DNA from: Lunularia cruciata
Lineage: Eukaryota > Streptophyta > Marchantiopsida > Lunulariales > Lunulariaceae
Direction: 5' to 3'
DNA length: 64,000 nt
NCBI GenBank assembly: GCA_948567375.1
Contig: OX419756.1
Coordinates: 36,966,333 to 37,030,332 of the forward strand
Shown: positions 1,200 through 50,737 of the stretch, piece by piece
Layout of the letters: the number at the start of each line of letters is the position of its first letter
How positions within the stretch are numbered: the first letter of the stretch is position 1
Program-made: the position numbers and the translations under genes
The notes under the pieces: generated by a model
What the model saw: only the letters and a program-made list of their open reading frames with translations
What the model was told of the DNA's origin: nothing
Database searches by the model: none

Positions 1200-1203
1200 T
1201 TTT

Positions 1204-4523: not shown

Positions 4524-4538
4524 TGACACAAAGGGTAC

Positions 4539-7602: not shown

Positions 7603-7630
7603 GACCTTCACTTTGAGGACAAAGTGAAAA

Positions 7631-7647
7631 CTTAGTCCGGGGGTAAA
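7631..7647 (+). other. Polypurine tract of element A
   Basis: The sequence CTTAGTCCGGGGGTAAA lies directly before the 3' LTR. The G run next to the LTR start is the expected plus-strand primer of a Ty3 element. Confidence 0.75.
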
Positions 7648-8358: not shown

Positions 8359-9863
8359 GTACTGCACCCCTACTAGGTGTAGATCCTCTACCACCACCTC
8401 TACCACCTTGTCCTCCATGAACTGGAGCTCCTCTACTACTTGCCATAGCAGCCCTACCACTCCGTAACTCCGGGTGTAGGTCAAAACACCAGTCACTAGT
8501 GTGACCAAATCTGTGGCAATGCTCACACTGCCTCTGTGTTGGCTGTGATGCACCAGAGGTATCAGGTCCGCTGCCCTGAGTACACTCTCTCCTATGGTGA
8601 GGTCTACCACAAGTCCAACAAGCAACACCACCACTCACTGGCTGCTGCTGACTCAAAAATGAGGGTAAGGGTCTAACTCCACTAGGCCCTCCACTCGCTC
8701 CATAGGATCTGGGTTGTCCACCCTGTCCTCAAAAACCAACTGGGCGTGGTGCACTCTGTTGCACTCTAGAAGAAGTCACAACCGTGGATGAGGTCTCCCT
8801 ACCAAATCCAGATGTCACCACTCTCTCTTCTACCATGTTGAGCTCAATACGCTCAGCCAAACCAAAGACTACTGCCAAAGTGGGCGAAGTAGCCTGCAAC
8901 AACGTAGCATCACGAACTCTACGTCGCAACTCCCTGTCCAGTATCCCATACCAAAACTGGACTGCCTAGGCCTCAGTAACTCCATGAGTGAAACTGATCA
9001 GCCGCCTCATGCGAGTGTATGCCTTGCATAGGCTCTCTCCAGCCTTCCGCTGGAACTCCTGCAAGCTCCTCAGCTTGTCAGTCCGCACTCCCTGGTAGTT
9101 CTGCCTCAAACATAGAAAGAACTCCACCATGGGGTTAAACCCCGGTACCACACCACCTCCTGCAGCGGTACTTCCACTCGTAGTAGCACTATCTCCAGCT
9201 AGTGCACCTCCACTAGCTCCACCAACACTACTCGAGCTAGAACTCGTGGGTACAGCCGATCTACTCCTGGCCACCGAGCCAAAGTGATGGAGACATAGTG
9301 TGGAGACCAATACTATCTCCATAACTCAATCTCCTCCAAATGAGCTCTCCTAAACTCATGGTAGTCATCCATCGGTGGACCCTCCAGATGCTTAAACAAC
9401 CCCTTCCATGCCATGAAGGGTGTGAACAAAGTCGGGTTCCGCATCTGCTGCAGATCACACCAACTATCGAACTCCTGGATGAAGTCATCCAACTCAATGG
9501 TACCCACTGTACCAGAGTAACGCCTAGGGCCTTTGGAGGCCCCATAAATCTCGTCCATGTCCCACAACAACGGTGCAGACACACCAAGTGCACTCTCAAC
9601 TGAATCAGCTCCTGTGTCGAACTCCAACTCAGAGTCAATCTCCTCCCTCATTGGGACCTGAGATACAAGCTGATACCGAGCACCACTCCGAGTAAACCCA
9701 CTGCGTACTGTAGGGCTAACTCCTCTAGAATCTCCAAAGAACTCCGTTGTGACAAAGTAACCACAACAGCGAACCCGAACCACCAACTGCTACCGCAAGT
9801 CGCAACCGCAAGTACCCCACCAAGTGCCAACACCACCAAGTGCCAATACCAACTAAGCACCAC
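8354..9863 (-). pseudogene. gag of element B, with two zinc knuckles, frameshifted
   Basis: This is the decayed counterpart of the 385-codon gag at 46779-47936. The capsid part has the same landmarks: a LDDFIQEFDSWCDLQQM block, then PFMAWKGLF, then a region rich in Ser and Gly. It is spread over several frames between 9863 and 8729. The nucleocapsid at about 8620-8490 has two Cys/His knuckles, CWTCGRPHHRREC and CEHCHRFGHTSDWC. The second is a perfect CX2CX4HX4C. Element A interrupts the reading frame just after this region. Confidence 0.82.
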
Positions 9864-10164
9864 CCACTAATGTAACTCTAACCGAGATAACTACACTAGG
9901 GGAAGGGCAACCTGTAACCTGCCATCATAACATGCACTCTCATGGTCTGCAGGTCATTACTTCCTGCCTCACCGGAGAGAAACAAAGGTAGTCTGACTGG
10001 TCATCACTCCAGCCTCACCACCGAGAGCACACCAGAGCACCAACGCTCAAAAGTCAGGGCACCTCACACAAACATGGTGCACAAACAGGAAGCAGAGAAT
10101 GGAAGGGGTCCAATCACAAGAAATCTAAACAAAAACCCTCCATCTCATAACACAACACGGGATT

Positions 10165-10177
10165 GACTCTGCCACCA
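10165..10177 (-). other. Probable primer binding site of element B
   Basis: On the minus strand TGGTGGCAGAGTC follows the proposed LTR end by two bases and begins with the obligatory TGG. The same block is conserved in element C at about 48239-48251. The matching tRNA is not identified. This site is the reason for placing the LTR end at 10180 and not at the alternative TG...CA boundary at 11082. Confidence 0.5.
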
Positions 10178-10179
10178 TT

Positions 10180-11537
10180 TGGCATTTGACATAAGAGGAG
10201 TTCGTATCTAAGTCCTAAGCTACCAGGATCACCAAGAATGGGATCAAACTGCCTTTCCTAGCCAAAGCTACATGTGTATAGATAACAATGGCACAGTCAC
10301 TAGGACAACAAGTGAGGGTGGACCAATTGGCTAGGGCACCAGTCTAGGAACAAGAGATCTAGGGGTCAAACCTTGTTACGCACAATCTAGCAGGAAAGGC
10401 AGATTTTGCCAACCAATGACCAAGATCTACTCTAAACTAGCTAGCCTCACGCCAACAAGCTGGCTTGCTGGCCCTTCTAGGCCTTCTTAGCCTCTCATAG
10501 CCCACAACCCTATGCCTCGAAGCCTCTAAATGCCAAATGAGGCCTTTCTTGTTGCCACTTTGAACCTCCTCCAAAATTGGCGAAACCTCTCTAAATCTGT
10601 GAAAGTCCTCCAAACTAGCAAAAGTCCTCCAAATCTAGCCAAACCGTGAAAAGTCCTCCAAATCTGGCCCAAAATCTGACGTAAACCCTAAAGATGGCTG
10701 TCCGCCAAATCCCCCGCTAACTTTCCACTCGAGCCAAATTGACAAAACAGGTTTTTCCAAATTACAATTTCATGAGAAGAGCTTCCCAACTCCACCTTCA
10801 ATTTGACTTTCTGAGCCCAACTCGTAGCAAATTGGTCCTACCTTCACCTCTTGAGCTCAAAATCACAACACTGCTCGAAAATTGCTCCTTCTTTGCTCAA
10901 AATTTGGCCAGCGCTTCCGTACACTGTCCGCCTAACTGCCAAATTTGCATCACTTGAACAAGCTTTTGCACACTAGGGAAACACAGAACTTGAATCGAGC
11001 TACCACGATCCACCGAGCTTGGAGATACCACCAACACTCAACGTTCCTGCACCCGATTTCCCCCTGACTTCACTTCTCTGATGTAATCAGATTGCTTAAC
11101 ACTCTCAACTCAACTCAACTCACCTCAAATCAGTACTTGATCTGTCACTCTATAAATTGCCAACAACTGGGCACTGACTACAATCAAGCCACACCCACTC
11201 AAGCATAGAGAATCTAGGTGACGCTCGCCGGCCTCTGTCCACCATAGCCAAGAACTCGAAGGCTCAACATCAGAGAAGTGAGCTCTTTGGAGCTCACTTC
11301 GAAACTATACTCCCTGGACTCGAGCTAGCACTAAAACCCTAACGGTCCCGCTGATGGCACACTTGACGGTGCAAACGGTGCAAAGTGACGGTGGGCCCCA
11401 CCGTGAAGTCAGTACCCCAAACACAAAATCTAACCATCGGAAAGTAGTCTCTGAGAAACTGCTAGAATAACTCTAACTACTATCATTGGAACTCCACTGT
11501 CCGAGCATCTAGATGCGGAACTACAAATGGCGTGACA
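10180..11537 (-). repeat. 5' LTR of element B
   Basis: On the minus strand the repeat starts TGTCACGCC and ends AAATGCCA, about 1.36 kb. Element C has the same sequence at 48254-50744 once two nested solo LTRs are removed. The first 450 bases also occur at 33005-33454. An alternative reading is a 456-base LTR (11082-11537, ending CTGATTACA); no clear primer site follows that end. Confidence 0.65.
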
Positions 11538-11906
11538 CCTTGCAGCTCAAGTGACACCTATTATTGTAAAAGAGTGGTAGTAAGGTCACTCTCATTATCA
11601 TTTCTGGTTTTCCTAGATCTAGGAATATTTGCAATTTGCTTTTTGAGTTATAAAACTTTGATTTTGACATATTTATGTACCATGTGTGTTGTGATCTACT
11701 AGCTAAGGTTCTGATCTAGTTCTTGAACTGGTCTTATTTTGATTTTTCTAAATAAGATCAATCAAAATAGAATTTTTTTTCTTTGTAATAATAAGCTCTT
11801 GATTTGCTGGACAACTTCAAAATGTTGTGTTATCAAATGTGAAGTGAAGTAAGTGCTTGCTAAGGGTCTGCTCTCATTTGGCTTGACAGGTTTGAAAAGT
11901 TGGGTC
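11538..11906. other. Unassigned flank between element B and an A-family LTR
   Basis: AT-rich sequence with no coding signal. A 10-base inverted repeat (TATTTTGATT and AATCAAAATA) lies near 11735-11770. No feature is recognised. Confidence 0.6.
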
Positions 11907-32898: not shown

Positions 32899-33004
32899 TA
32901 TCATGCGTATATACATCGCTACACAACATACATCGCTGTCAACATCATACACTATAGGAGCACAACTCACACATAAGTCATACATAGACTCTAAAGTGCC
33001 ACAA
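32899..33004. repeat. Outer copy of a ~107-bp direct repeat around the LTR fragment
   Basis: It is about 91% identical to 33456-33563 by eye (shared block CTATAGGAG.ACAACTCACACATAAG). The two copies flank the LTR fragment 33005-33454 in the same orientation. Confidence 0.85.
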
Positions 33005-33454
33005 TAATCAGATTGCTTACCTCTCTCAACTCAACTCAACACAAATCAGTACTTGATATGTCACTCTATAAACTGCCAACAACTGGGCACTGATTACAGT
33101 CAAGCCACACCCACTCAAGCATAGAGAATCCAGGTGACGCTCGCCGGCCTCTGTCCACCATAGCCAGGAACTCGAAGGCTCAACATTAGAGAAGTGAGCT
33201 CTCTGGAGATCACTTTGAAACTATACCCCCTGGACTCGAGCTAGCTCTGAAACCCTAATGGTCCCGCTGACAGCACACTTGACGGTGTGAACGGTCCAAA
33301 GTGACGGTGGACCCCACCATGAAGTCAGTACCCCAAACACAAAATCTGATTGTCGGAAAGTAGTCTCTAAGAAACTGCTAAAATAACTCTAACTACTATC
33401 ACTAGAACTCCAGTGTCCGAGCAATCTAGATGCAATACTACAAATGGCGTGACA
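33005..33454 (-). repeat. LTR fragment at the 3' end of element C
   Basis: On the minus strand this starts TGTCACGCC exactly as the 5' LTRs of B and C do. It matches their first 450 bases, then stops at CTGATTA. The remaining 900 bases of the LTR are absent. It is on the right side and strand to be the 3' LTR of C, but it is truncated and bounded by the direct repeats. Confidence 0.7.
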
Positions 33455-33455
33455 A

Positions 33456-33577
33456 ATGTCGTGTGTATGTACATTTGCTACACAACAAACATCACTGTCA
33501 ACATCATACACTATAGGAGGACAACTCACACATAAGTCATACATAGACTCTAAAGTGCCACAATTGCCCCCCTAGCT
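33456..33577 (-). repeat. Inner direct-repeat copy and candidate polypurine tract of element C
   Basis: The minus strand reads AGCTAGGGGGGCAAT (33577-33563), a good polypurine tract, then TGTGGCACTTT, which looks like an LTR start. The 107-base repeat copy follows before the TGTCACGCC LTR fragment. A tract this far from the LTR start is not normal. Confidence 0.6.
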
Positions 33578-33731: not shown

Positions 33732-33872
33732 TCAAATACATCTAGGACATAACCATTGTCCCTGAGGAACCACTGTGAGGGGAGGAGTCATACATGCAAT
33801 ATGTCATCCTCTTGAACAGCTATCACACACTAACATAGTAGCAGCTCCACTAGAAAAGCCACATAACATACA
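33732..33872 (-). pseudogene. PHD finger at the C-terminus of the element C polyprotein
   Basis: The minus strand encodes a Cys4-His-Cys3 zinc finger in PHD order: CMLC, then VCDSC 10 residues on, then H and C in HIAC, and finally QWLCPRC, three codons before the TGA stop at 33732-33734. A TGA replaces a codon between SRG and HIAC, where PHD fingers normally have the conserved Trp (TGG to TGA). PHD fingers bind histone H3 tails. Here it follows the SH3-like integrase end (GRTILRIREVLPSG), at the position where chromoviruses carry a chromodomain. A role in targeting integration is inferred. Confidence 0.82.
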
Positions 33873-35200
33873 CCTCAAGCCTGCACGTACAAGTGCCAAG
33901 CTTGGGTCCATAGTACCATCAATTTTTGGAAGGTGGCATGGCACACAATTGTGCACATGATCCTTCCAAACAACACCATCACGTCCTTCTAACACAAGGA
34001 CTCCAGATGGCAAAACCTCACGTATTCTCAAGATAGTGCGGCCAGTAGAAACATCAAGTGTCATTGGTGTTGTCTGCTATAGATATACATAGTCGCTTGG
34101 ATGAAATCAATGGATCGAGGGTCTATAACTCCCTCCTTGAATGGTAGCATAGCGTAAAGTATCTCTATGTTGAGCAATCGCCAAGTTCTCAAAGTCCATT
34201 GGCATCACTCTCCAAAAGATCTCTACCCGCTGAGAACATGCGCTCATCCATACATCAGGGTCATCTAAGTCCAAAACTACAGTAGCATCTTGATGAATGG
34301 ATGCAAGTAAATCTAGATCTCATCCATAGAGTAGAAAGTATGGAGAGAAGGATGCTAAGGAGGCTTGCCGGCTGAACCGATAGCCCATGGCCAACCAAGG
34401 TAATTGGAGATCCCAATCTCCCAAGTGGCCTCTCTAAAAAACCATACTTTCGCAATCCTTTCTTCACCGTCTGAACCACTCTCTCTGCTAAGCCATTTGC
34501 CTCAGGGTGATCCCGAGATGTAGTATGATGATCAATCAAAGCCTCGTCACACAAGACCTGAAACTCCCCCAAGAACTCTGTACCCTGATCAGTCAAAACC
34601 TTAGTTGGTGCACCAAAATGACTAAGAACTTGATCCAGAAATGAGTAAGTTTTCCCTTCACTAGACTTGTCAGGAAGTGCCACCAACTCAATCCACTTGG
34701 AGAAGTGCTCCACCATCACCAAAATGTATTGATGATGTCTCATAGTCAGCGGTAAAGGTCCGGCGAGTCCAAACTCCAATGGTAACCCAATCCCATGATA
34801 GGTAATGGGTGTAACTATGGCATAAGAGCATTGAATGATGCTCTAACTTGGTCACAAACCACACATCTAGCAAAAAACTGTTGTACCTTGGTCTGCATAC
34901 CGCACCACCAATAATGACTCTAGAGTAAGCTATATGTATGCTTTACTCCAAAATGTCCTAGCTCCTCATGAGCATGACGGACCAATTGTGATCTCTATGA
35001 TGGAAGTGGTACTACTCGCACTCTACCATCCTCCCATACACGCAAAAGGTGTCTACCCTCCTATCTAAACCGTTTGGCTTGTTGAAGAACATGGTCTCTC
35101 TCCTTGGCCCCAACTGTGCCACCCACAACACCAGTGCAAAGATAGTCCATCACTAAGACATCATCATGAATGTCTTGCTGAACTATACCAATATCTTCAC
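33873..35200 (-). pseudogene. Integrase of element C
   Basis: On the minus strand the zinc-binding part (HEELGHFGVKHTY and CVVCDQ) lies at about 34980-34850. The catalytic core includes LTDQGTEFLGEF and NGLAERVVQTV (34590-34480). The first catalytic Asp block reads MEFGLAGPLP instead of a DF.GPLP form, so this residue appears lost. An SH3-like end (34064-33900) leads into the PHD finger. Several stops and frame changes break the protein. It inserted the cDNA into the host genome. Confidence 0.85.
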
Positions 35201-36590
35201 TCTCTGGATCTGTGACCTCAATAACTCCTCCTGTATGGTTGAGAGAGATACCACCAAAGCCAATGCATGCCAACCTGGCACCATCTCCTCATCTGTCTCA
35301 CCATGCCAATGTGCTTTGGTCTGATCCTGTTGGCTCGGACATGGGTTTCTACTCAACCCATCTGCATCACGGTTCACCACTCCAAGTCTGTGAACAACCG
35401 TGAAATCATACTCCTATAAAATCAGAGCCCATTGTGCAAGCTTCCCTGAAAGCTTGTCGGACTCCATCAACCACTTCATTGGCTGATGATCAGTGATGAG
35501 AGTGAAGGGGTTACCAAATAGGTAACATTGGAAATGTGCTATTGCCCAAACTACTGCCAAGCACTCTCCCTCATATGAACTATACTTTGCCTCCACTGAA
35601 TTGTTAGAGCAACTAGTATAGGCCACCACAAACTCCTTCTCCTCATCATCATGCTGGGTGAGCACTGCTCCAAGCCCCAACATACTCCAATCAGTATGAA
35701 CCTGAAATGGTCATCCTCTGATCGGTCTCCTCAAAATAGGAGCAGATGTCAACCTCTTGAGCTCTACAAAAGCTCTCTCTTGCTTATCTCCCCAACACCA
35801 CTCTTGTGTAAGCTTGGTCAGCTTCGTCAAGGCCTTGGCAATGGCACTAAATCCTCTTACATAGAGGCAATAGAAGTTTGCCAACCCAAGGAATGCTCAC
35901 ACTCTGCTCACATCCGTAGGCCGAGGAATATGTGCAATAGCCTCCACCTTGCTCTGCTGAACACCAAGTCCTCCGGGGTAGATAGTGTGACCCAAATACT
36001 CAACCTGCTCGTGGAAGAATCTACACTTCCCAAGATGTAATTTGAGTCCATGAGATCTCAACCTCTCAAACACCTCCAACAATTGTCTCTCATGCTCCTC
36101 CACAGTAGTGCTATAAACCAAAATGTCATCAATATAGCACCGAGCAAACCAATCCATCTAGGATCCTATCCATGACACTCTGGAACTCAGCAGGAGTGTT
36201 CTTTAACCCAAATAGTAAGAACCTCCACTAATATAACACATCCTTGCCATGAGGATCAATAGCCTAAAATGTTGTCTTGGACTTATCCTCCTCCCTGATT
36301 GGCAACTGATGATATCCCGCTCAAAGATCCAAAGTACTGAAGACCTTTGCATGCCCAATCGCATCAAAAATCTCCTCCGGTGTAGGCATGGCATACCAAT
36401 CAGCCCTGGTCTGTCGGTTGATAGGATGGTAATCTCTACACATCCGCCCATCTGTATAGTTTCCATGCATATCCTTCTTGGTTGGCATCACTATCGTTGA
36501 TGCATACTCTCCATGTGAAATCTCCACCAAACTAGCCTCAAAAAGGTCACTACTCCGGCTCTGAATCAATGTCTTCTCCATCTCACTATA
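35200..36590 (-). pseudogene. Reverse transcriptase and RNase H of element C
   Basis: RT blocks read on the minus strand are MPTKKDMHGNYTDGRMCRDY, FDAIGHAKVFSTLDL, KTTF, FLLFGLKNTPAEFQ and the catalytic YIDDILVYS (about 36135). HGLKLHLGKCRFF and VEYLGHTI follow. RNase H (35683-35417) has the EGECLAVVWA and TDHQPMKWLM blocks. The style FGLKNAPAEFQRVMDR is that of chromovirus-related Ty3 elements common in algae and non-seed plants. Stops lie at the end of STLDL and before YIDDI, and there are frame changes. Confidence 0.88.
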
Positions 36591-36599
36591 TTGATAAGG

Positions 36600-37150
36600 A
36601 TGTCAGAAAACTAGTGTATCACTAGTCAGCTCAATCCGTATACCAGGTCCCTTCAGAGCACCCAAATCCTTCATATTGAAGGCAAAACAACTCGTGTGGC
36701 TCCTCAAGAACCTCCAAACCCTTCATCTTTCCTCTCTAGTAAGCTTGGGTCCAAGATCTGGCTCCCAAGTATCCTTTGTAACTGTAGTAGGAGTGGAAGA
36801 CATACTGACTGGCTGCTACACTGGGCCCTTGGGAGCAATAGTGTCATGCTCCCGACCACTAGAAGTCCCAACCTCTATGTGAAAAACTCCCTCCACTTTG
36901 GCTGCAAGCTCCACACGTCCTCTAGCTACATCCCATGTGGACCAAGGGTGTAATCCAAGTAGCCCACGCTCATTTGGATGGACTCCAAGTAGACCACTCT
37001 CCCTAGTAGCTACTGGATGTGTCCCAAGAATACCATGTCCACTCGGTCCATCGCCCCTAGCATGTGCTTGAATCGTCTCGATAGGCACAAGGCTCACAAG
37101 TGTCCGAGCGGTGATGCCTATCAAGCGCATCCTATGTTGCTCTGCCAAGC
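36600..37150 (-). pseudogene. Linker between methyltransferase and RT in element C
   Basis: The region continues the frame of motif IX/X (to 36816) with repeats of the type GLLGVHPNERGLLGLHP and ends near AKVEGVFHIEV. No domain is recognised. Stops precede the RT. Confidence 0.6.
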
Positions 37151-38110
37151 CAAGGCTCACAATCCAAGTCAAACAGTTCAAGTCCATAGCCTGACCTAAC
37201 ACTTGACGCCTAGATGCCTCTGACACTATTGGAACAACGGTAATACAGGTGCAAAAACCCATCACCCACTCTCTCTCATCAGCATTGGCCTCCACCAATT
37301 GCTGTAACTATGAGTCCCAAACAAGTCCAAGTCCTCCCTCTCGAAAAGCATGAGAGCTTGGGAAACTCATGAGTGTGGGAAATGTAGCTTGAGGTTGTCC
37401 AACTAGGTTCACCACTGCCATAGGTGACCTATTAGCCACTACCACTGTTTGAGACTGACGCCCAACATCCAAGATATCATCAACAAGGATGTGGTCAAGT
37501 CGTTGAATCCCATCATAAGCACGTTGTAGAACCTCTCTGGGTAAGAGGTTCGTCCACCAAAGACGAAGATGATGAGCTCGTGATCCCACTCTGACTGCAT
37601 CTAACAATACAGCAAGTCCCATCCAAGAATGGACCTGATGTGTACTCACCACCACTCTAGTGCGAGAATCACCCATCAAAGGAACGTTCTCTAAAAGGTA
37701 AGCTAGAGAAATAGATTGATGAACCTAGAGATGTCATAGTATCCATAACATCTCCCAAAACACACGAGGATCTTGAAGACCCAATCCTTTACCAACATGT
37801 GTATGTCCCTTACACAGCCATCCAGAAATCACCAAGTGAATAGGCCCATGTCTCTCTAGGTCATGCGCTCCTAGTAAGGAAATGTCTCCTGGTAGGGCCT
37901 TCTGGTAACCTCTGACTATGACATCGGTAATAACTCCGGATACCGATAGGCCAAGTGTGCCACATGATGTAGAGAGACTCGCCTAGCAGTCTCATCTCTC
38001 TCTACATACAAGTACCTCTGTACTCGTTTACCCGCATGTAACATCATAGCTAGTCCGGTGCTGATCCCACCAAACAACTCCAATAGGCATATCCTCTCTA
38101 CTGGATACTG
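37150..38110 (-). pseudogene. C5-cytosine DNA methyltransferase domain inside element C pol
   Basis: The enzyme family transfers a methyl group from S-adenosylmethionine to cytosine C5 in DNA. On the minus strand the conserved order is present. Motif I is LLELFGGISTGL (38098-38051). The motif II acidic site YVERDETARR is near 38010-37980. Motif IV is LVISGWLCKG, with catalytic Cys at 37814-37812. Motif VI is LLENVP (ENV at 37691-37683). A motif VIII-like block RLWWTN is near 37570-37540. Motif IX/X is ADEREWVMGF, then RRQVLGQAMDLN (37290-37170). The Pro before the catalytic Cys is Leu and the following Gln is Lys. A frameshift near 37920 and stops at 37736, 37727 and 37310 kill this copy. It lies between protease and RT in the pol order. 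Confidence 0.87.
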
Positions 38111-38479
38111 CCAAGTAATGAGTATGGTATCCAGAGGTATCAAAGCAATCACCTCTAGAGGCTCATCCTCACACTCATCTCTTGATGGTACAAAGGCTCC
38201 ACTCCAAGCCTGTTGCACCAACTGATCTGCATGCTGCTGCAATGCCTCCTCTGAACTACACAATGGAACATCCAAGGTGGATGGAACAATCCCACTTGTA
38301 CTCCAAAGCCAAGTGATCTCCTCTGGTACTGGAGTATCCTCTGCATGGGCATTCCCCTCCAACAAGTCACCAGGCCAAGTAATTGCACCACTGAAAGCTA
38401 AAACTGATGTTGCCATGGTCTCAAAGTGTAGTGAGCCAAGACTGCCACTACTGAAGCGTACTGGTGGGCAACATACCCA

Positions 38480-38854
38480 TCCCTCACCAGACTGCCAACC
38501 AAGTCTATAAGAGGTTGTCTCCTCCCAATAGTCAATGCTAAAACCCATGAGGTATAACACTGCTCCCCCAACTAGCACATCATATGACTCAGCTATTGTC
38601 GCAATAGCTTGAGCTCTCACCACTAAGCTATCAGTCAAATGACCAAGCTGAACCTGGACAACAAGCTTTCCACGTGTGATATATTGTGTCAAACCACCAC
38701 CTAGAGATGTTTGGATCTGAAATAGACACCTCTCCACATCGGTCTTCCGTAACTCCAGACCAACAATTGCAGCCTTCCCCAACATAAGGAGCTGCACACT
38801 AGAGTCTAACAAGACTCTTTGTGGTGTATAGACCTTCCCTGAAGGTCCCACCAA
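38480..38854 (-). pseudogene. Retropepsin-like protease of element C
   Basis: The ORF 38854-37916 (312 codons) begins with a protease fold. VLLDSSVQLLMLGKAAI is the active-site block, with D-S-S-V in place of D-S-G-A. YDVLVGGAVLYLMGF follows about 75 residues later and corresponds to the second hydrophobic-Gly motif. The rest of the same ORF is a linker followed by methyltransferase motifs I and II, so protease and methyltransferase were made as one polyprotein. Confidence 0.7.
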
Positions 38855-39596: not shown

Positions 39597-40647
39597 TAGG
39601 ATTGATCGTGATCCCGAAGAACCAAGTACAACCTCGTCGTCTTCCAAAAAGGCGAAGGGACTGCGCCCAAAGGCAATTATTTCTGCCAAGGAGGAAAAGA
39701 TCCTCTTGAAAGCCAAAGCTAAAGCCTTGCAGAAAGAACTTAAGGAGACACTACTCAAAACTCGGGAACTGAGTTTGGAGGAGGAGATGAAGATGAAGTC
39801 TCTAGTTTTTCCGGCAGACATCCGATCCAAAGTAAAGGGTCTAATCTAAGCCAAGGTGGGCCAACCCGAGGAACCTTGGGTTAAGGCCACTAGCAATCCT
39901 GTCACCATTTTGAAACGTCCCAAAGTAAAAAGGGAACATGGAGAGACTTTGAACCTGAAGCTGAAGGCAAAGACAGTCAAATTGGGAAGAGTACTCCAAT
40001 ACAATATTGTAGCGGATTTGGCAGCCACAAATGCCAACGTTACATTCAAGCAATTATGGGAAGACAACAAGCTGTACAAGAAGCAGCTAAATTCGGCCCT
40101 TAAGAAGGTGAGGTCGATGTCAAAGGACCTGCCAGCTATCTATCGTATTGAACAAGAAGATCTAGGATCTCCCAAGGTTGACGCGGAGATTGCAGGGTGC
40201 ATGATCACATCGATACCCATTGATTCAAGGTCCGGTGTGAATGTCATGACCGAGGATACCGCAAATCGACTCGGGTATCATACGGTTGAGCCAACACCCC
40301 GAGTGTTGAAATTTGCAAACCAAACTAGGAGACGGCATTTGGGCATGCTGTTAGACATAACCACGATCATTGGGGGGCTGCCCTTCAAGTTGAATTACAT
40401 TGTGTTGCAACTAGTGACAAAGACTGGTTACCCTTTGTTGATCGGAAGACCCTGGTTGTATAGTGCCCAAGTTGTGGTGGATTGGCATCAGCAAAAGTTG
40501 CGATTCAAGGACATTTCGTCCAAAGATCAGAAGCTGGTGACTGTGAGTTGGACAAAAGTTCCTTGTCTTGGGGAAACAAGTTTGTTAGAAGAGGAGGATG
40601 AATCCAAAGACTCATCGTCTTTGTCCTCAGACGAATCCGAAGACTAA
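39597..40647 (+). pseudogene. gag tail and protease of element D
   Basis: One frame with a TAA at 39847-39849. The first part is a Lys/Glu-rich linker. The protease block IPIDSRSGVNVMTEDTANRL is the active site, with D-S-R-S where relatives have D-G-G-S, and YPLLIGRPWLYS is the second motif. The acidic end (EEEDESKDSS) leads to a TAA at 40645. The active-site change suggests loss of protease activity. Confidence 0.75.
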
Positions 40648-40677
40648 GTCCAAGTTAACTATTCGGAATGCTACAAG

Positions 40678-42471
40678 GTGGATGTCGAAGACAAAGATCC
40701 ATATGACCTTGCCTTGGGTGAACATGACTTGGAGGAAGGGGTTTTGATGGCAGCTCGCCTTGGGTTAAGCCAAGTAAGCCACGTTGAAGGAGTCATCAAC
40801 CCCGATGACTGTCAAGATGTTGTCTTGACTGAAGGTAAAATTTTAAAATTTTCAAAGAAATTTCAATTTTCATTGCACTGTTCATAGAATTCCAGGATGT
40901 ATTCGCCTGGTCTATTGATCAAATGCCGGGTATTCCACGAGAATTTGGAGAACACCAGATTGATCTGGTTGAAGGTGCGGTTCCGGTTTGGCAGAGACAA
41001 TACCGCCTGAACCCGAAGTACTCGCTTTTGGTGAAAGATGAAATCAACAAGTACTTAGGAGCCAGAATCATCTTCCCTATCTTAAGCAGTGAATGGGTCT
41101 CTCCCATTGTCATTGTCCCGAAGAAGAAAAAAGGGAAGATCCGAGTGTGCCAAGACTTCCGTAAGTTAAACATAGTCACAAGGAAGGATCATCATCCCTT
41201 GCCTTTTACCGATACAATTCTAGATCAAGTAGCTGGTCATCCTTGTTATAGCTTTCTCGATGGATTTTTAGGGTACAATCAAGTATCCATTCAAGAAGAG
41301 AACAAGGATAAAACCACATTCATGACCAATTGGGGCACTTTTGCTTACAATCAAATGCCCTTTGGGTTGTGTAATGCTCCCACTACTTTCCAATGGATGA
41401 TGAATTCAATCTTCAAAGATTTCCTGCGTAAATTTGTGGAAGTCTTCATTGATGATTTTTGTGTGTTTGGGCGAAGAGATGTACATTTAGATTACCTTCA
41501 CCAAACTTTTGAAAGGTGTTGTTTTGCCGGCTTGTCATTACACCCGGAGAAATGCTTCTTCACAATGAAGGAGGGAATTCTTCTAGGGCATCGGATGTCA
41601 AGCCAAGGTATTGAAGTCGATGTCGAGAAGGTTAAAGTAATTGCAGCTTTGGAATCCCCGAAGAACATCCGGGAGCTGAAAGACTTCTTGGGACATGTCG
41701 GATACTGTAGACGCTTCGTGTCAAAGTATGCGGTGCTTGTTGCACCCCTTACAAAGCTTCTGAAGAAATCAGAAGACTATTTGTGGGAAGCAAATCAAGA
41801 AGAAGCTTTCCAGGTGTTGAAGAAGAAGTTGGTTGAAGCACTAGTTATGAGGGCCCCGAATTAGGACGTCCCTTTTCATGTATATGTGGAACACTTTGTC
41901 CATGGCCATCGGTGTTGTCTTAAGTCAGAAGGACGAGAAGAAGAAGGACTGCCTGGTGTATTATACCAGCAGACAACTTTCAGTTTCTGAAAAGAACTAT
42001 TTGACAATTGAAAGAGAAGCACTTAAGATGGTGTATGCCTACAAGAAACTTCACCACTACCTGCTGGGATACGAGTTTGTCTTCTATGTTGACCACTACG
42101 CATTGCAACATTTGGTCAAGAAGGCAGATTTGTCCGGGCAAATTGCAAGATGGATCTTGTTGTTACAAGAATTCACATATATTGTACAAGTAAGGAAGGG
42201 GGCTTTGCATTCAAATGCGGACTTCTTGTCCAGGTTAGAAACTCAAGACCAGGAGTGGGAAATTGACGATCGGTTCCCTGACAAAGAGTTATATCAATTA
42301 ACAGCAATGCAAAGTACGAGGTGTGCAACAGAATATCATTATCTGCATACTCTCCATTGTCCTGAAGGGATGGACTTGGAGCAGAGAGCAATCTTTCTCA
42401 GGAAAATGGGGCCGTACCAGCTCAAACACAACATTCTATTCAAGATGGGCGAAGACAAAATACTTTGGTGA
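40678..42471 (+). pseudogene. Reverse transcriptase and RNase H of element D
   Basis: RT (40923-41864) is nearly complete: SSEWVSPIVIVPKKKKGKIR, FRKLNIVTRKDHHPLPF, LDGFLGYNQV, MPFGLCNAPTTFQ and catalytic FIDDFCVFG, then LRELKDFLGHVGY-type thumb sequence. It is in a different frame from protease and from RNase H. RNase H starts after a TAG at 41862, with YTSRQLSVSEKNYLTIEREA and VDHYALQHLV. Its first catalytic block (TDAS in relatives) is not intact. A TGA ends the frame at 42469. Confidence 0.88.
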
Positions 42472-42474
42472 TGC

Positions 42475-43626
42475 TTGGAGTCATACGAAGTAGGAGGAAT
42501 GATTGAATCTTTACACTCCAAAGCATTGGGAGGACACTATGCTCTGAAGAATACTGTAAAGAAGATTCTTTTGGCGGGGTATTGGTGGCCTACAATGTAC
42601 AAAGACATGCATGCTCATATCCAAAGTTGTGATGCTTGTCAAAGAACGGGGAAGCCGATGGCTACTTCTCAATGGCCTTTGAGACCAATTTTGCCATTGG
42701 CCCCATTTGAGAAATAGGGAATTGATTTTGTGGGTCCCATTCAACCAATGACCCAAGTCACAAGAAAGCAATACATTTTGGTTTTTATTGACTATGCTAC
42801 CAAGATGGTCAAAGCTGAAGCAACTTGCAGAGATGATGCCAAAAATGTGGTGGAATTTTTTTTTCAAAACATCATCTCACAATATGGGTATCCTTTGGAA
42901 TTGGTCAGTGACCGAGGGACACATTTTTTGAACTCTGTAATGGAGGCATTAAGCAAGTACTTTTTGATTAAACATCGGAAGACAACTCCTTATAACCCAA
43001 AAGCAAATGGCTTAACGGAAAAGGCGAATGGATTACTTTGCAAAATTTTGAATAACGTGACTGTCAATTATGCTTATGATTGGGATACAAAATTACCAGC
43101 CGCGTTGTGGGCATATCAAACAACATAAAATATTACAACCAAAAAAACTCCATACTTCTTGACATATGGCTTGCATCCCATACTACCAGTTGAATTTGAA
43201 GTACCGACATATCGGATTCTTTGCTAAGAACGATTGTCGGAGGAAGAAAGCCAAGATCTTTGGATCCATCAACTAATGTGGTTAGAAGAGAAAAGAGACA
43301 ATGCAATGCAAACCACGAAGGAAGTACAAGCACAGAGGAAAGTCAAGCACAATAAGCATATCAAGCCTATGGCTGTGTGCAAAGGAGATTTGGTTTTGTT
43401 ATATGACAATCGCCAAATATTTTTTCCAGGCAAGCTGCATTTGAGATGGATGAGGCCCTATCAAGTTCTTCATCTTTATGAAAATGGGTCCATACAGCTT
43501 ATAGACATGGAGGGCAATCCTTTTGCCACTCTAGTAAACGGGTGGAGAGTTTGGAGATATTGGACCATAGACTCAAAAGTCTCTAAGACACCCGAGGTCT
43601 ATGTTTGCGGGGACGCTCACATTTGA
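42475..43626 (+). pseudogene. Integrase of element D
   Basis: The zinc domain has H-H-C-C (LHSKALGGHYA, CDACQRTGKP). The core has GIDFVGPI, SDRGTHFLNS and NGLTEKANG with the three acidic positions. A TAG at 42714-42716 replaces the Trp codon before GIDF, and TAA and other stops follow at 43126 and near 43227. The C-terminal part ends with TGA at 43624, directly before the polypurine tract. No chromodomain or PHD finger is present. Confidence 0.87.
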
Positions 43627-44024
43627 AGGAGGGGGTATGTGGTACCCACATTTTTTGGTTTTTTTTTCAAAATAGACAAGAAGAAGTGTATAAAGAAGTC
43701 GGATTGCGCTTGTATGGCCGAAGAAGGCAAAGAAAAGCATCTTCAAGATGAAACCCGAGGTAATGTGGCTTCGGGTCATAAGGCAAAGTACTCAGACTTG
43801 CCCTATTAGCATACAACCCAAAGTAAGGAGTCTTCGTATCTAGGGGAGCTCAACCCGAGGCAAAGATAGTGTAACAACCTTTCTTCGGAGCGAGAAATTC
43901 TAGAAGGGACCATTCAAAACCGGTGGTCATACACGTGAAGTACAATTGACAGTGATAGGCGCATGCAAGAGGTGTGATTTCTCAGTAGAAACTCAAATTC
44001 AAGAGAGACGAAGAAGGTGCAACT

Positions 44025-44032
44025 CTATAAAA
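44025..44032 (+). promoter_or_regulatory. TATA box of the element D LTR
   Basis: CTATAAAA lies 387 bases after the LTR start. The homologous element G has CTATAAAA at 63932-63925 on the minus strand, upstream of the same conserved region. Confidence 0.65.
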
Positions 44033-44365
44033 ATCGAGCTAACGACAAAGCAATGTCAAGAAATTTTCCTTTGCCGCTGAGGAGTTGTCCTGCAGGAGAT
44101 TGTGGGAAGGGAAGTAGAGTTGAAGACGCGCTAGTGTGTAGAGGAGAATTTGAGAGAGTTAAACCGAGAGATAGTGAGGAAGAAGGAAAGATAGGAGAAG
44201 GAAAGAAGAACTCCAAATTCGCAGTGAGAAATCATGCGATTCAGAGGTTAGATGTGATTGCGAGAATTGAAGTCTTGAGCCGACTTTGGATCACCTTCTT
44301 GGCGTGGAACTAGAACGTAAGTTTTCCAGGTTTCATGACCAAAATAATTGAGAGTAAGTGTCTTG

Positions 44366-45649
44366 ATGGGTCCAAGCAAGGCAAGGGAAGAGGAGAATGC
44401 TAGCTCAAGGAGTGAAGCGTCTATTCCGATACAACAACTATAGAGAAGAAGGCGAGTATTGGGTGAAGAAGAGGTAAAGAAGGAGATCACTCCGCAGGTG
44501 GAAGTAGGTGCAAGTGATGGAGTGGAGTACCTACGAGAAATTGTGTGCCCATTGTTAGTGAAGTTAGAGCACAAGAAGAAGGAGATGCAGTCAACATGTC
44601 CAGAGGTGAAGACTGTGTTGCAGGTTTTGGCAAGATTGGAAGAAGAGAACTTGGAGTTGAAGAAGAGTATAATCCAAGGCAAGGAGGAAAGGGAAGTACT
44701 GCGAGGGAATGCAATAGTGCCATGTCAAGTTATTGAGAACTTGAAGAGAGAAGCGAGGTATCGAGAGGAACTTGTGAAGAAGAGTGACATAGCAAGGGAG
44801 AGACAAGTAGCAGAGTACAAAATCTTGAAGCAGTAGTTTGCTGATTCAAGACTAGAAATTATCCATGCTATGGCGAGGGTAGCAGAGAAGGAACAAGAGC
44901 TCAATAGATTGATGGAGAGTGTAGAAGAGAAGAAGCAACTATGGCAGCGGGAGTTGACAGTGAGATATAGGGAGGAAGAGAGATTACAAGAGTTACTTCG
45001 TAATCAAGAGGAGAAGATTGTGTAGAAGGAGAAGGAGAAAGAATTTGTGAAAGCCGAGTTCGAGGCGGAATTGGCAATGTACCAAGAAGATTGGCTTGCA
45101 GATTGGGAGCGTGAAAGGAAGATGAGATTGGAGCTATTGAAGGAGATCATAATCAGGATGAATGCGATGCTGAGTACAGAGGCCAGTGTTTGTATTGAAG
45201 AGACAAGGCTGCACGAGTTGAAATTGCTGGTGTAGGAGACAAGGAGGAGACATGCAAAGGATATAGACTTGAATGCTCTATTAATTAGTCTAAAAACTTG
45301 GGTAGATAGGAAGATATTGGAAGTCAAAGAAAATATCACGATTAGATTAGATCTAGTGAAGATAGAGATAGATAAACTTTGGAAAGATGTTAGAGTCAAA
45401 CCCGAAGTAGATGAAGTGGGAGTGCAGATGTCTTCAAAATTACCATTGGAGACAATAGAGAAGAGTGGGTCAGCAGATAAGGAATTAGATAGATTACCCA
45501 CTAGTGAAATGTCAGATCAAGAAAGAGAATTGTTAGATCTGGTCAAAGATGTAGGATTTGTGAAACCCGAGGATAGAGCAATAGGAAGTATAGTTACTTC
45601 GAGATCAAGTTTGAAAGCTGAGGAAGAAGTAGACATCGGATTGGATTAG
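44366..45649 (+). pseudogene. Coiled-coil ORF in the tail of element D
   Basis: From the ATG at 44366 one frame runs 427 codons. It is broken by four TAG codons (44441, 44834, 45023, 45233) and ends with TAG at 45647. The product is rich in Glu, Lys, Arg and Leu with heptad-like spacing (LARLEEENLELKKSI, EKEQELNRLMESVEEKK) and is predicted to be an extended coiled coil. The last 80 residues are not coiled coil. It is homologous to the longer minus-strand ORF of element G, sharing ARLHELKLLV-type and VDIGLD-type ends. It may be a structural protein related to gag or plant retroelement ORF1; its function is unknown. Confidence 0.6.
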
Positions 45650-46429
45650 TAACCGATTTGAGATTTGAATAGGCAGATATGAAGAAGTGCATTGTCATTT
45701 TGGATCTGTAGGTTTGTAGAGTCATTAGGAAGATAATTGTCGCTTGTTTCACTATTTAAGAGTGGCATTCGTAGTCAAATGTTGTTCAGTGCTCATAATT
45801 CTAAGAATAGATAAAGCAAAGTGTTGGGAAGCAGTGCTCATTGCTTAAGCTTGATTCCGAGTATCAGCTTTGTGCTTGTGTTTGTAAGTGTGTGGAGAAA
45901 TTCAAAGTGCAAGTCAGTGTGCTTGTTGGATGTTGGATTCTGCAGCCTTGATCTTCATTCTATGTGTTTGATCTTGAGTGAAGTGCAATTGAAGCAATGC
46001 CTTGACAGATCTGAGAGGAATTGTAATGTTGGTAGTATTCTACATTTGTGAGTGTAGTGTGAAGTTGATGTGAATCAATTTCAATTGAGGAAGTTGTGCT
46101 TTCAGTGGAGGGGTGGAACACAATTCTAAGGCAAAGTTGTTTTGCAGTGAAGTGTCGTTTTCAAGAGAGCTTGAATCATCACAATCAAGATTTTTTGGAA
46201 AGAATTGATGGAGTTGTGCTTAAGGAGTGTTAATTTGTGATAAGACTGAGAATTAGTGCTCATTACTCTCTTCTGGGTGTGGTTTCTACCTAAGAGATTA
46301 AAGATGCAACCAAGAAGAACTACATGTTACTGTTTGACTTTATATTTGACCAATTCTGACTAGTATCTCTGCATGAACAAACTTTACTTACCCAATTACC
46401 ACAAAAGTGATATTTGTCGGGTTGTCACA
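45650..46429 (+). other. Downstream part of the element D LTR
   Basis: Non-coding region conserved with 60575-61350 of element G. Conservation follows the DNA, including the last 100 bases before CACA. The frame 45821-46051 is conserved only because the DNA is. Confidence 0.6.
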
Positions 46430-46778
46430 TATGTGTAGATCCTCTACTACCACCTCTACCACCTTGTCCTCCATGAACTGGAGCTCCTCTACTACCTGCC
46501 ATAGCAGCCCTACCACTCCGTAACTTTGGGTGTAGGTCAAAACACCGGTCACTAGTGTGACCAAATGTGTGGCAATGCTCACACTACCTCTGTGTTGGCT
46601 ATGATGCACCCAAGGTATTAGGTCCACTGCCTTGAGTACACTCTCTCCGATGGTGAGGTCCACCACAAGTCCAACAAGCAACACCACCACTCATTGGCTG
46701 CTACTGACCCAAAAATGAGTGTAAGGGTCTAACTCCACTAGGCCCTCCACTCGCTCCATAGGATCTGGATTGTCCACC
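46430..46778 (-). pseudogene. Nucleocapsid part of gag, element C
   Basis: The minus strand encodes two Cys/His knuckles (about 46680-46640 and 46580-46540), as in element B, with a few stops. A Gly/Arg-rich stretch (GGQGGRGG) follows up to the junction with element D. Confidence 0.75.
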
Positions 46779-47936
46779 TTATCCTTGAAAACCAACTGGG
46801 CGTGGTGCATTTTGTTGCACTCTAGAAGAAGTCACAACCGTGGATGAGGTCTCCCTACCAAATCCAGATGTCGCCACTCTCTCTTCCACCATATTGAGCT
46901 CAATACACTCAGCCAAACCAAAGACCACTACCAAAGTAGGCAAAGTAGCCTGTAACAACGTAGCATCACAAACTCTACATTGCAACTCTCTGTCTAGTAT
47001 CCCATACCAAAACTGGACTGCTTGGGCCTCAATAACTCCCTGAGTGAAACTGATCAGCTGCCTCATGCGAGTGTATGCCTCGCGTAGGCTCTCTCCAACC
47101 TTCCGTTGGAACTCCTGCAAGCTCCTCAGCTTGTCAATCCGCACTCCTTGGTAGTTTTGCCTCAAACATAGGGAGAACTCCACCATGGGGTTAAACCCCG
47201 GTGCCACACCACCTCCTGCAGCGGTGCTTCCACTCATAGTAGCACTATCTCTAGCTAGTGCACCTCCACTAGCTCCACCCACACTACTTGAGCTAAAACT
47301 CATAGGTACAGCCAATCTACTCTTGGCCACCGAGCCTGAAGTGATGGAGACATAGTGTGGAGACCAATATTGTCTCCATAAATCAATCTCCTCCAAATGA
47401 GCTCTCCTGAACTCATGGTAGTCATCCATCGGCGGACCTTCCAAGTGCTGAAACAACCCCTTCCATGCCATGAAGGGTGTGAACAAAGTCAGGTTCTGCA
47501 TCTGCTGTAGATCACACCAACTATCAAATTCCTGGATGAAGTCATCCAACTCAATGGTACCCACTATACCAGAGTAACGTCTAAAGCCTTTGGAGGTCCC
47601 ATAAATCTCGTCCATGTCCCACAACAACGGTGCGGACACACCAAGTGCACTCTTAACTAAATCAGCTCCTATGTTGAACTCCAACTCAGAGTCAATCTCC
47701 TCCCTCATTGGGACCTGAGATATAGGCTGATACCGAGCACCACTCCGAGTAAACCCACTATGTACTGCAGTGCTATCTCCTATGGAATCCCCAAAGAACT
47801 CCATCATGATAAAGTAACCGCAACAGCAAACCATAACCACCAATTGCAACCGCAAGTCGCAACCGCAAGTACCCCACCAAGTGCCAACACCCCCACGTGC
47901 CAACCCAACCAAGTGCCAATACAAACTAAGCACCAC
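46779..47936 (-). CDS. gag capsid ORF of element C, 385 codons
   Basis: This is one of the few long intact frames of the window. After a Trp/Gly-rich start it shows IELDDFIQEFDSWCDLQQMQ, PFMAWKGLFQHLEGP and YHEFRRAHLEEI. A Ser/Gly/Ala-rich loop follows, then FSLCLRQNYQGV, LREAYTRMRQLISF and QAVQFWYGI, the order of a retrotransposon capsid (Ty3 gag type). It stops with TGA just before the knuckles. The M at 47936 is the first of the frame; an internal start is possible because the first 50 residues are poorly conserved in B. Capsid assembles the particle around the RNA. Confidence 0.8.
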   Translation of the reverse strand: MVLSLYWHLVGLARGGVGTWWGTCGCDLRLQLVVMVCCCGYFIMMEFFGDSIGDSTAVHSGFTRSGARYQPISQVPMREEIDSELEFNIGADLVKSALGVSAPLLWDMDEIYGTSKGFRRYSGIVGTIELDDFIQEFDSWCDLQQMQNLTLFTPFMAWKGLFQHLEGPPMDDYHEFRRAHLEEIDLWRQYWSPHYVSITSGSVAKSRLAVPMSFSSSSVGGASGGALARDSATMSGSTAAGGGVAPGFNPMVEFSLCLRQNYQGVRIDKLRSLQEFQRKVGESLREAYTRMRQLISFTQGVIEAQAVQFWYGILDRELQCRVCDATLLQATLPTLVVVFGLAECIELNMVEERVATSGFGRETSSTVVTSSRVQQNAPRPVGFQG

Positions 47937-48292
47937 CCACTAATGTAACTATAACCGAGATAACTACACTAGGGGAAAGGGCAACCTATAACCTGCCATC
48001 ATAACACGCACTCTCACAATCTGCAGGTCATCACTTCTTGCCTCACCGGAGACAAACAAAGGTAGTCTGATTGGTCATCCCTCTAGCCTCACCACCAAGA
48101 GCACACCAGAGCACCAACACTCAAAAGTCAAGGCACCTCACACAAACATGGTGCACAAATAGGAAGTAGAGAATGGAGGGGATCCAATCACAAATAATCT
48201 AAATGAAAACCCTCCATCTCATAACACAACACGGGACTAACTCTGCCACCATTTGGCATTTGACATAAGAGAAGTTCGTATCTAAGGCCTAA

Positions 48293-48701
48293 TGTAACAA
48301 TATGGAGTTTAGCAACAAAGTTAGTTGGGCTTACAAAGTAGATAATAAGACAAAATAGCCTAGAATATTCTAGAAGCATCTAAGAAGCTTCTTGGGAAGC
48401 TTCCCAACTAGTTAACTTGCGCCCTAAGCAGGTAGCTTCTAGAAGCTTCTAACTAGCTTAGCTTGCACGCCAAGTATGCGGCTTCTAGAAGGAAGCTTCT
48501 TGAGAAGCTTCCTGGTTAACTTGGTTTGCACTCCAAGAAAGCGGCTCAAGGAAGCTTCTTGAGAAGCTTCAAGGGTCTTGTATACTACCTATAAATACCA
48601 AAGCCGAAGCTCATGCTAGGCATTCAGAGTTTTCCCTCATTCAAGTGTCCCAATGTGAGTTTCCATACTCCTATTTCTCTCCTCAGTTTCGGTCTTTTAC
48701 A
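48293..48701 (+). repeat. K-family solo LTR with target duplication CCTAA
   Basis: It begins TGTAACAATATGGAG and ends GGTCTTTTACA, like the LTRs of element K. CCTAA flanks it on both sides (48288-48292 and 48702-48706), and the host LTR sequence is continuous across it when compared with element B. Its centre is full of GAAGCTTC-type palindromes. Confidence 0.95.
48363..48511. promoter_or_regulatory. Heat-shock-element-like array in the K-family LTR
   Basis: GAATATTCTAGAA (48363-48375) and TTCTAGAAGCTTC (48437-48449) are each three perfect inverted nGAAn units, the canonical heat shock factor site. Further GAAGCTTC pairs follow to 48511. This is a sequence match; heat response is inferred. 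Confidence 0.6.
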
Positions 48702-49996
48702 CCTAAGCTACCAGAATCACCAAGAATGGGATCAAACTGCCTCTCCTAGCCAAAGCTACATGTGTATAGATAACAGTGGCATAGTAACTAGGACAACAAG
48801 TGAGGGTGGACCAATTGGCTAGGGCACCAGTCTAGGAACAAGAGATCTAGGGGTCAAACCCTATTGCGCAAAATCTAGCAGGAAAAACAGATTTTGCCAA
48901 CCAATGACCAAGATCTACTCTAAACTAGCTAGCCTCACGCCAGCAAGTTGGCTTGCTGGCCCTTCTAGGCCTTCGTAGCCTCTCATAGCCCATAGCCCTT
49001 TGCCTTGAAACACTGAAATTTAGCCAAATGAGGCCTTTCTTCTTGCCACTTTGAACCTCCTCCAAAATTGGCAAAACTTCTCTAAATCTACAAAAGTCCT
49101 CCAAACTAGCAAAACTCCTCCAAATCTGGCCAAAATCTGACATAAACCCTAAATTGACTGTTTGCCAAATCCCCCGCTAACTTTCTACTCAAGCCAAATT
49201 GACAACACAAGTTTTTCCAAATCACAAATTCATGAGAATGGCTTCCCAACTCCACCTTCAATTTGACTTTTTGAGCCCAACTCACAACAAATTGGTCCTG
49301 CCTTCACGTCTTGAGCTCAAAATCACAACCACTGCTCAAAATTTGCTCCTTCTTTGCTCAAAATTTGGCTAGCGCTTCCACACACTATCTGCCTTACAGC
49401 CAAATCTGCATCAATCAATTGATCTTCTGCACACTAGGGAAACACTAACTTGAATCGAGCTACTAACGATCCACCGAGCTTGGAGATACCACCAACACTC
49501 AAAGTTCCTACACCCGATTTCCCCTTGACTTCACTTCTCTGATGTAATCAGATTGCTTACCACTCTCAACTCAACTCAACACAACACAGATCAGTACTTG
49601 ATCTGTCACTCTACAAACTGCCAACAATTGGGCACTGATTATAGTCAAGCCACACCCACTCAAGCATAGAGAATCCAAGTGACGCTTGCCGGCCTCTGTC
49701 CACCATAGCCAGGAACTCGAAGGCTCAACATCAGAGAAGTGAGCTCTCTGGAGCTCACTTCAAAAATATACCCATGGACTCAAGCTAGCTCTGAAACCCT
49801 AATGGTCCCACTGATGGCACACTCGACGGTGCAAATGGTGCAAAGTGATGGTGGGCCCCACCGTGAAGTCAATACCCTGAACATAAAATCTGACCGTCGG
49901 AAAGTAGTCTCTAAGAAACTGCTGAAATAACTCTAACTACTATCACTAGAACTCCAGTGTCGGAGCAATCTAGATGCGATACTACAAATGGCGTGA

Positions 49997-50737
49997 TGTA
50001 ATACTCCGAGTACAAGAGAAGAGAGAAAACACAGATTGCACACTCAAACATTCGATGCCCCAAGGGAGCACCTTCTCTTTATTATATAGGCAAAGAGGAT
50101 CTCCTCCAAGGAAGCTCCACCATAGGATTAGGGACACAGATAGGTGACATGTCAGCAAGCTCCACCCTTGGATTACTTACTTGGATGGGTGACCTGTCTG
50201 GTCTAGGTCCTATCTGGTTGGTCAAACGAGCTTTGACCGGATGGAATCTTTTAGGGAATCTTCCTGTAGGAATCTGAGAATCACATGAGTAAGGTACCAT
50301 TGGAAAGCTCTCGACGAGACAAACCAGGGGGGAGGGAAGGACATCCTTTCCTCCATTGGGGGGGGGGGAATCTGCACATTTTCGAGGCCTAATTCATCCA
50401 TTTAGGCCTCCAAATTGCCTTCAAAGATTTCAAGCATATTTCGGTTCCTACTCTATTAGTAGAAGTCCTCTTTTGGTGATACCTCTTTCTGATCTGTTTA
50501 GTCCATCATGTGTAACATCCTTCCAGATGTTACCAAACCAATTCTCACCTTTAAATCATATGTCTAGCTATTGGTTCTAAAGTTCTCAAGTCTATTTCGG
50601 TTTCTGCTCTATTAGTAGAAGTACTCTTTTGGTGATACTTCTATCTGATCTATTTTGACCATCATGTATAACATCATTCTAGATGTTACCAAACCGAATT
50701 TCACATCTAGATCATATGGCTAACCCTTGGTATTACA
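49997..50737 (+). repeat. E-family solo LTR with target duplication CGTGA
   Basis: 741 bases, TGTAATACTCC to GGTATTACA, flanked by CGTGA at 49992-49996 and 50738-50742. It interrupts the terminal bases of the element C LTR, whose last CA reappears at 50743-50744. Element J shows the same LTR with a gag and an iMet-type primer site. Confidence 0.95.

Follow-up and report, generated by a model that had tools for sequence, protein, structure and literature searches.

Within a 64,000-nucleotide window of the liverwort Lunularia cruciata (contig OX419756.1, positions 36,966,333 to 37,030,332), a decayed Ty3/gypsy retrotransposon on the minus strand, here copy C, belongs to a family that carries both a DNMT3-type C5-DNA methyltransferase and, at the end of its integrase, a PHD finger. 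Both domains are real and are not confined to copy C. As an overall explanation, which we hold with about even confidence, the family would be a gypsy element with a leaky UAG, self-primed reverse transcription and integration from a circle, in which the methyltransferase methylates the element's own DNA, the PHD finger steers integration and insertions are silenced early.

A genome search with the methyltransferase profile PF00145 gave 123 scored matches out of 2161 candidates. Some of the matches are host genes, and copy C is not among them. Twenty of the 123, picked for long open frames, were fetched as 10-kb stretches, and the element was present in all 20, so the domain occurs in more than one copy. 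In better-preserved copies the methyltransferase matched PF00145 (3.4e-7, 30.5 bits, cut-off 22; the copies had been chosen by this profile) and the finger matched PF00628 (7.4e-10, 39.1 bits, cut-off 24). The Gag-side open frame of 1428 amino acids contains the PF00145 match, two CCHC knuckles, of which one is canonical and the other variant, and a protease-like LLDxGAQ motif (knuckles and motif by eye), together with a gag match below the cut-off. The Pol frame of 1037 amino acids holds RVT_1, RNase H, Integrase_H2C2 and rve, then the PHD finger at its very end. The order reverse transcriptase (RT), RNase H, integrase and the gypsy-type RT and RNase H mark the family as gypsy-type, and the nearest solved polyprotein is Ty3 Gag-Pol (9.9e-97). 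Among NCBIfam models, dcm (TIGR00675) stayed below its cut-off, as did bacterial transposase models on the integrase. Of eight loci that came with the PF00145 search, L005–L008 carry the family methyltransferase and L001, L002 and L004 resemble host genes; going by motif order, the host possesses two or more DNMT3-type genes, whole or in part (L001, L004), and a rearranged DRM (L002). The assembly measures 566 Mb (74 contigs), not the notably large genome that the initial annotation of this DNA had assumed.

In the better copies, both sequence and fold of the methyltransferase are nearest to DNMT3. Its motifs run from I to X in unrearranged order, unlike those of DRM; the presumed host DRM gene does have them rearranged. 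Identity to host DNMT3 is 25%, and a 100/100 branch of the methyltransferase tree separates element from gene sequences. The catalytic residues are invariant in 31 aligned rows, and methyl transfer is a predicted activity. Against the Marchantia polymorpha proteins P0003 and P0004 the methyltransferase is 69–71% identical, the capsid 67–68%, the protease 57–59% and the gag spacer 46–47%; against P0015, P0016, P0018 and P0019 the methyltransferase is 49–53% and the capsid 23–27% identical. For these identities, as for the domain-order and selection comparisons below, the methyltransferase stretch begins after motif I.

The zinc ligands of the finger (C4HC3) are invariant across 13 aligned sequences, and its within-genome ratio of nonsynonymous to synonymous differences (pN/pS) is 0.20 (129 pairs with synonymous change, 20 copies), falling to 0.13 in more diverged pairs. 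The nearest solved fingers are, in rank order, KMT2C and KMT2D, then CHD4, KDM5 (Lid), WSTF and ATXR5. The liverwort finger has no aromatic residue directly before CDxC; lack of this cage residue and likeness to CHD4, KDM5 and ATXR5 are, as a rule, marks of readers of unmodified H3K4. By these rules, the missing aromatic and the CHD4/KDM5/ATXR5 likeness speak for a finger that would bind unmodified H3K4; KMT2C and KMT2D, at the head of the ranking, do not.

A protein search with the methyltransferase part returned 46 matches: 14 named Marchantia polymorpha (63–74% identity), one Sphagnum fallax (49%; its gene model looks patchwork) and 31 without organism name (sources ena, jgi and lgn), taken as environmental. 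P0048 as query returned four proteins, itself included, and viral contigs gave 11 loci with matches spanning 52–141 query residues. Because the methyltransferase is common to Marchantia, Sphagnum and many environmental elements, its capture is old and not special to Lunularia. The initial annotation had proposed a capture related to those of dinoflagellates and charophyte algae; a C5-methyltransferase of the charophyte kind does sit on a Ty3/gypsy element here. The family shows a kind first described from algae in a fuller, probably ancient form. Three domain orders occur among 48 proteins (P0003–P0050): gag-protease-methyltransferase, with RT next in some gene models; RT-RNase H-methyltransferase-integrase-PHD; and methyltransferase-RT-RNase H-integrase-PHD. 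An integrase match was present in 25 proteins, of which P0013, P0022 and P0039 were dropped as cut short; all 22 that were kept end in a PHD-type finger, strictly C4HC3 in 20 and with a longer first loop in P0044 and P0049 (by eye). Trees of the methyltransferase and of RT, built from one set of 19 rows, concur in the three architecture groups, an argument for long co-inheritance; RT bootstrap values had not settled, and the liverwort row combines the two domains from two copies of one family. Two environmental proteins extend past the PHD finger: residues ~1640–1880 of P0033, with DPWAGTG and VVTSPWF, look amino-methyltransferase-like by eye with no Pfam match, and residues 2122–2177 of P0041 give a weak PTM/DIR17 Tudor match (0.0042, below cut-off), possibly a second reader.

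After the methyltransferase, all 24 junctions found (the 20 fetched copies, copy C and L006–L008) show an in-frame UAG followed by CAR YYA, as CAG CCA, CAG CTA or CAG TCA; the junction was not found in L003 or L005. UAG CARYYA is a readthrough context of plant viruses. Since the product made without readthrough would be Gag-protease-methyltransferase alone, the methyltransferase may be as abundant as Gag.

The copies start with repeat A (449 bp, TGTCACGCC...) and end in B1-GC-A2-B2, repeat B being 106 bp long and terminating in CGACA. This is the split A-coding-B-A-B arrangement of DIRS type, and two like flanking long terminal repeats (LTRs) were not found. A1, A2 and B2 could all be read in 16 of the 20 copies, with A1 and A2 89.4–99.8% identical (median 97.7%). 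Equal 4-bp flanks were present in 14 of these 16, the exceptions being L013 and L021; L020 was read at the inner A. DIRS elements carry a tyrosine recombinase and are not known to duplicate their target. These 4-bp duplications and the rve integrase place the family outside DIRS. The 14 bases directly after A1 are complementary to A bases 257–270, a match equalled in none of 2000 base shuffles of A; the primer site is identical in all 15 copies in which it was located, and the complementary stretch matches exactly in 14 of 17 and differs by one base in the other three. Priming by a tRNA was considered and dropped in favour of self-priming. The A2/B2 junction is the exact join of two cDNA ends, one set by the primer site and the other by the polypurine tract ahead of B1. 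Across B1-GC-A2 runs the palindrome GACAGCTGTC, in which CA and TG flank two bases like a fused pair of integrase ends. From the exact join and the palindrome we infer a circular intermediate opened at B1-GC-A2. One copy, L025, has A1, a single B and equal 4-bp flanks (A-coding-B), which fits a one-repeat circle and also later recombination.

Copy C had been drawn too small at 33732..38854: it comprises 49998-46430 and 39597-32899, with a 6.8-kb insertion between. Its minus-strand methyltransferase motifs I (LLELFGGISTGL), IV, VI (LLENVP), VIII and IX/X are found by eye in the order first reported, with the catalytic Cys of motif IV retained and its P changed to L, and the reported C4HC3 finger closes the integrase on the same strand (by eye). 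The placement of the methyltransferase between an aspartic-protease-like stretch and RT also holds, except that the in-frame UAG intervenes before RT. Near 37.95 kb a frameshift interrupts the methyltransferase, in-frame stops break it further, and the finger has one stop inside; for this reason neither piece has a Pfam match, and the better copies were examined instead. The RT, RNase H and integrase pieces do have Pfam matches. At 91.2% identity of A1 and A2 (Kimura two-parameter distance, K2P, 0.081), beside the median of 97.7% in the 16 read copies, copy C is older. The features are, in window coordinates:

49545..49998, minus strand: repeat A1, which opens copy C at the 5' side and whose TG terminus has become CA (match to repeat A of better copies)
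49531..49544, minus strand: primer-binding stretch CATCAGAGAAGTGA, immediately following A1; its counterpart in better copies is complementary to 14 nt within repeat A, suggesting self-priming
46430..49530, minus strand: 5' leader and gag part, with a 409-base unmatched stretch at 48293-48701 (blastn to L014)
39598..46429, no strand assigned: foreign insertion holding a gypsy element in antisense, its RT and RNase H on the plus strand, outside the element proper (sequence comparison)
38430..38842, minus strand: aspartic-protease-like domain, approximate (LLD-S/G-AQ motif by eye; relatives P0016 and P0019 labelled aspartic protease in Pfam)
37066..38098, minus strand: DNMT3-type C5-methyltransferase domain with frameshift and stops, ends approximate (motifs; type assigned from better copies)
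36816..36818, minus strand: in-frame UAG, then CAG CCA, between methyltransferase and RT (same place and context at all 24 junctions)
35946..36635, minus strand: RT, approximate (a piece matches RVT_1 at 6.6e-14; a better copy has the domain whole)
35376..35780, minus strand: RNase H, approximate (RT_RNaseH 8.1e-33)
34236..35065, minus strand: integrase, approximate (rve 3.8e-11 on a piece)
33738..33872, minus strand: C4HC3 PHD finger closing the integrase open reading frame, one stop inside (motif; PF00628 7.4e-10 in a better copy)
33564..33574, minus strand: polypurine tract, approximate (G-run adjoining B1 in all 20 fetched copies; over the stretch shown, a base differs in five of them)
33457..33563, minus strand: repeat B1 (repeat comparison)
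33006..33454, minus strand: repeat A2 (91.2% to A1, K2P 0.081)
32899..33005, minus strand: repeat B2, 3' end of copy C (repeat comparison)
8359..11540, minus strand: second family copy, 5' part with A1, leader and gag (93.8% to L014)
1..509, minus strand: continuation of the second copy, which leaves the window at its edge (93.9% to L014)

The two family copies were hit by different antisense elements, at 510-8358 and 39598-46429, in the same internal place within ~15 bp. The element at 510-8358 has LTRs of ~700 bp that are 94.6% identical; the one at 39598-46429 has no LTR pair and bears it little likeness.

Compared with five better copies, C-to-T type changes in copy C affect ~25% of CG, 18% of CHG and 3% of CHH sites, which shows that copy C was methylated at CG and CHG, whatever the enzyme. 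As a control, the LTR pair of the element at 510-8358 had too few sites (CG 1/22, CHG 2/24, CHH 8/494).

In the explanation given at the outset, the element would make two products: Gag-protease-DNMT3, ending at the leaky UAG, and, by the readthrough that the codon context suggests, a longer one that adds RT, RNase H, integrase and PHD. The 14-nt complementarity suggests that the RNA would prime itself on its own leader, and the exact A/B junction that the cDNA, with B-A repeats at both ends, would be closed to a circle. The integrase would open the circle at the CA-GC-TG site inside the repeat and insert it with a 4-bp duplication, in keeping with the termini and duplications of the copies. 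Made at the level of Gag, DNMT3 would plausibly enter the particle and methylate element DNA before or just after insertion, while the PHD finger, by reading histone state, would direct the integrase, most likely towards chromatin that lacks H3K4 methylation. Insertions would thus be silenced early, do little harm and be retained. More tentatively, the family may represent an ancient lineage of circle-integrating gypsy elements in which two domains form a fixed pair: before the leaky stop, on the Gag side, a DNMT3 writer, and on the integrase a reader of the H3K4me0 type. Such a pair would seek unmarked silent chromatin, insert the element there and methylate each new copy as a self-silencing way of life. 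Animal DNMT3 combines an ADD reader and the methylase in one protein; by analogy, and with the same reserve, the pair might restore between two proteins what that enzyme does in one.

Several observations weigh against this explanation. The 20 copies and 48 proteins were all found through the methyltransferase, so elements without it are unsampled. Within the genome, pN/pS of the methyltransferase is 0.50 (66 pairs, 12 intact copies) beside 0.49 for the gag spacer, and 0.34 (14 pairs) beside 0.42 (52 pairs) in more diverged pairs; young copies do not clearly show selection on it. (The comparison for RT was discarded, as sequences from other gypsy elements in the window were mixed in; pooled pS 0.58, diverged pairs.) Where comparable across species, RT, RNase H and integrase are more conserved than the methyltransferase: RNase H 81%, RT 79% and methyltransferase 68% in P0014; integrase 82% and methyltransferase 48% in P0022. 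Motif IV reads GWECQ in environmental P0024, P0026 and P0029, with Glu, not Pro, before the catalytic Cys. KMT2C and KMT2D, the top two matches of the finger, are not known to be H3K4me0 readers. The flanks of copy C show no clear target duplication (ATTA/TGTA), no A1 lies within the 10-kb stretches of L010, L016 and L017, and L025 could stem from B1 x B2 recombination. Host maintenance methylation by itself would leave the CG and CHG decay that copy C shows. The SymbioLINE enzyme of dinoflagellates produced no DNA methylation in yeast, so retrotransposon methyltransferases need not target DNA (PMC5890265).

The alternative that survives best, a real possibility that we rate at well under an even chance, is that the methyltransferase does not silence the element: it would protect the cDNA against deamination or nucleases of the host, or methylate particle RNA, and host enzymes would silence the copies. 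A decay of CG and CHG that spares CHH agrees with host maintenance enzymes, the host seems by motif order to own DNMT3 (L001, L004) and DRM (L002), and both cDNA protection and RNA targets were raised in the discussion of the 2018 report (PMC5890265). Set against this, the nearest fold is DNMT3, and the 2018 report finds that retrotransposon DNMTs methylate CG de novo (PMC5890265). It is unlikely that the repeats are ordinary A+B LTRs (TG...CA) that lost the 5' B, with integration of linear DNA: A2+B2 alone does resemble a whole TG...CA LTR, but the 5' end of all 16 copies read consists of A alone with the primer site directly after, equal 4-bp flanks surround 14 of them, and B1 stands between polypurine tract and A2, where reverse transcription of a plain A+B LTR would not keep it. 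We find it improbable that methyltransferase and finger are mere passengers kept by descent on an element that works as any gypsy. The within-genome pN/pS of the methyltransferase, which is not low, would suit such passengers; against them stand the invariant catalytic residues in 31 rows and the finger in 22 of 22 proteins (both sets found via the methyltransferase, so that its losses would be missed), the agreement of the two trees on three architecture groups, and a methyltransferase more conserved across deep splits than capsid and protease. A host-gene insertion in copy C alone found no support and is refuted by the domain's presence in all 20 fetched copies, its 25% identity to host DNMT3 and the 100/100 branch that parts element sequences from genes.

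Usually it is transposons that are targeted by DNA methylation; a long-lived lineage that pairs a writer with a histone reader makes self-silencing testable as a winning strategy, and with relatives in the laboratory plant Marchantia polymorpha such a test would be practical. The Marchantia proteins, such as Mp_4g09160 (P0003), are named hypothetical and carry the 63–74% identical methyltransferase in gag-protease-methyltransferase proteins, a likeness seen at the protein level.

Parts of the design have counterparts elsewhere. Chromoviruses are Ty3/gypsy elements whose integrase carries a chromodomain as chromatin reader, and they are not known to have a methyltransferase. CrREM1 of Chlamydomonas, also Ty3/gypsy, has a PHD finger and a chromodomain in an antisense open reading frame, its PHD thus off the integrase, and likewise no known methyltransferase. 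Tf1 of fission yeast self-primes from the 5' part of its own RNA but has ordinary LTRs and is not known to carry either domain.

The closest published case is KnitGypsy-Dnmt3, a DNMT3 in a Gypsy element of Klebsormidium nitens reported in 2018 (PMC5890265). No protein named as K. nitens appeared among the 46 methyltransferase matches or the four P0048 matches, and the two elements are compared here by published description. Like the element here, it has an unpermuted Dnmt3 in the Pol open reading frame of an LTR Gypsy and, per figure legend, DIRS-structured repeats with Gypsy domains (PMC5890265). The main text of PMC5890265 contains neither the word PHD nor Marchantia, and a literature search, a weak test of absence from print, gave no report of PHD in such elements or of liverwort cases. 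The leaky UAG, self-priming and land-plant copies described here are not mentioned for KnitGypsy-Dnmt3 in the passages of PMC5890265 available to us, and the capture that was placed in the Klebsormidium lineage in 2018 may call for a broader view. A 2025 paper cites streptophyte and dinoflagellate cases (PMC12344493). The dinoflagellate SymbioDIRS-Dnmt3 and SymbioLINE-Dnmt are likewise retrotransposon-borne DNMTs, and de novo CG methylation was shown for SymbioDIRS-Dnmt3 though not, in those passages, for the Klebsormidium enzyme (PMC5890265). SymbioDIRS-Dnmt3 shares the A-coding-B-A-B repeats of the Lunularia element; the dinoflagellate elements rely on a tyrosine recombinase or an endonuclease (PMC5890265), whereas the liverwort family uses a DDE integrase with a PHD finger.

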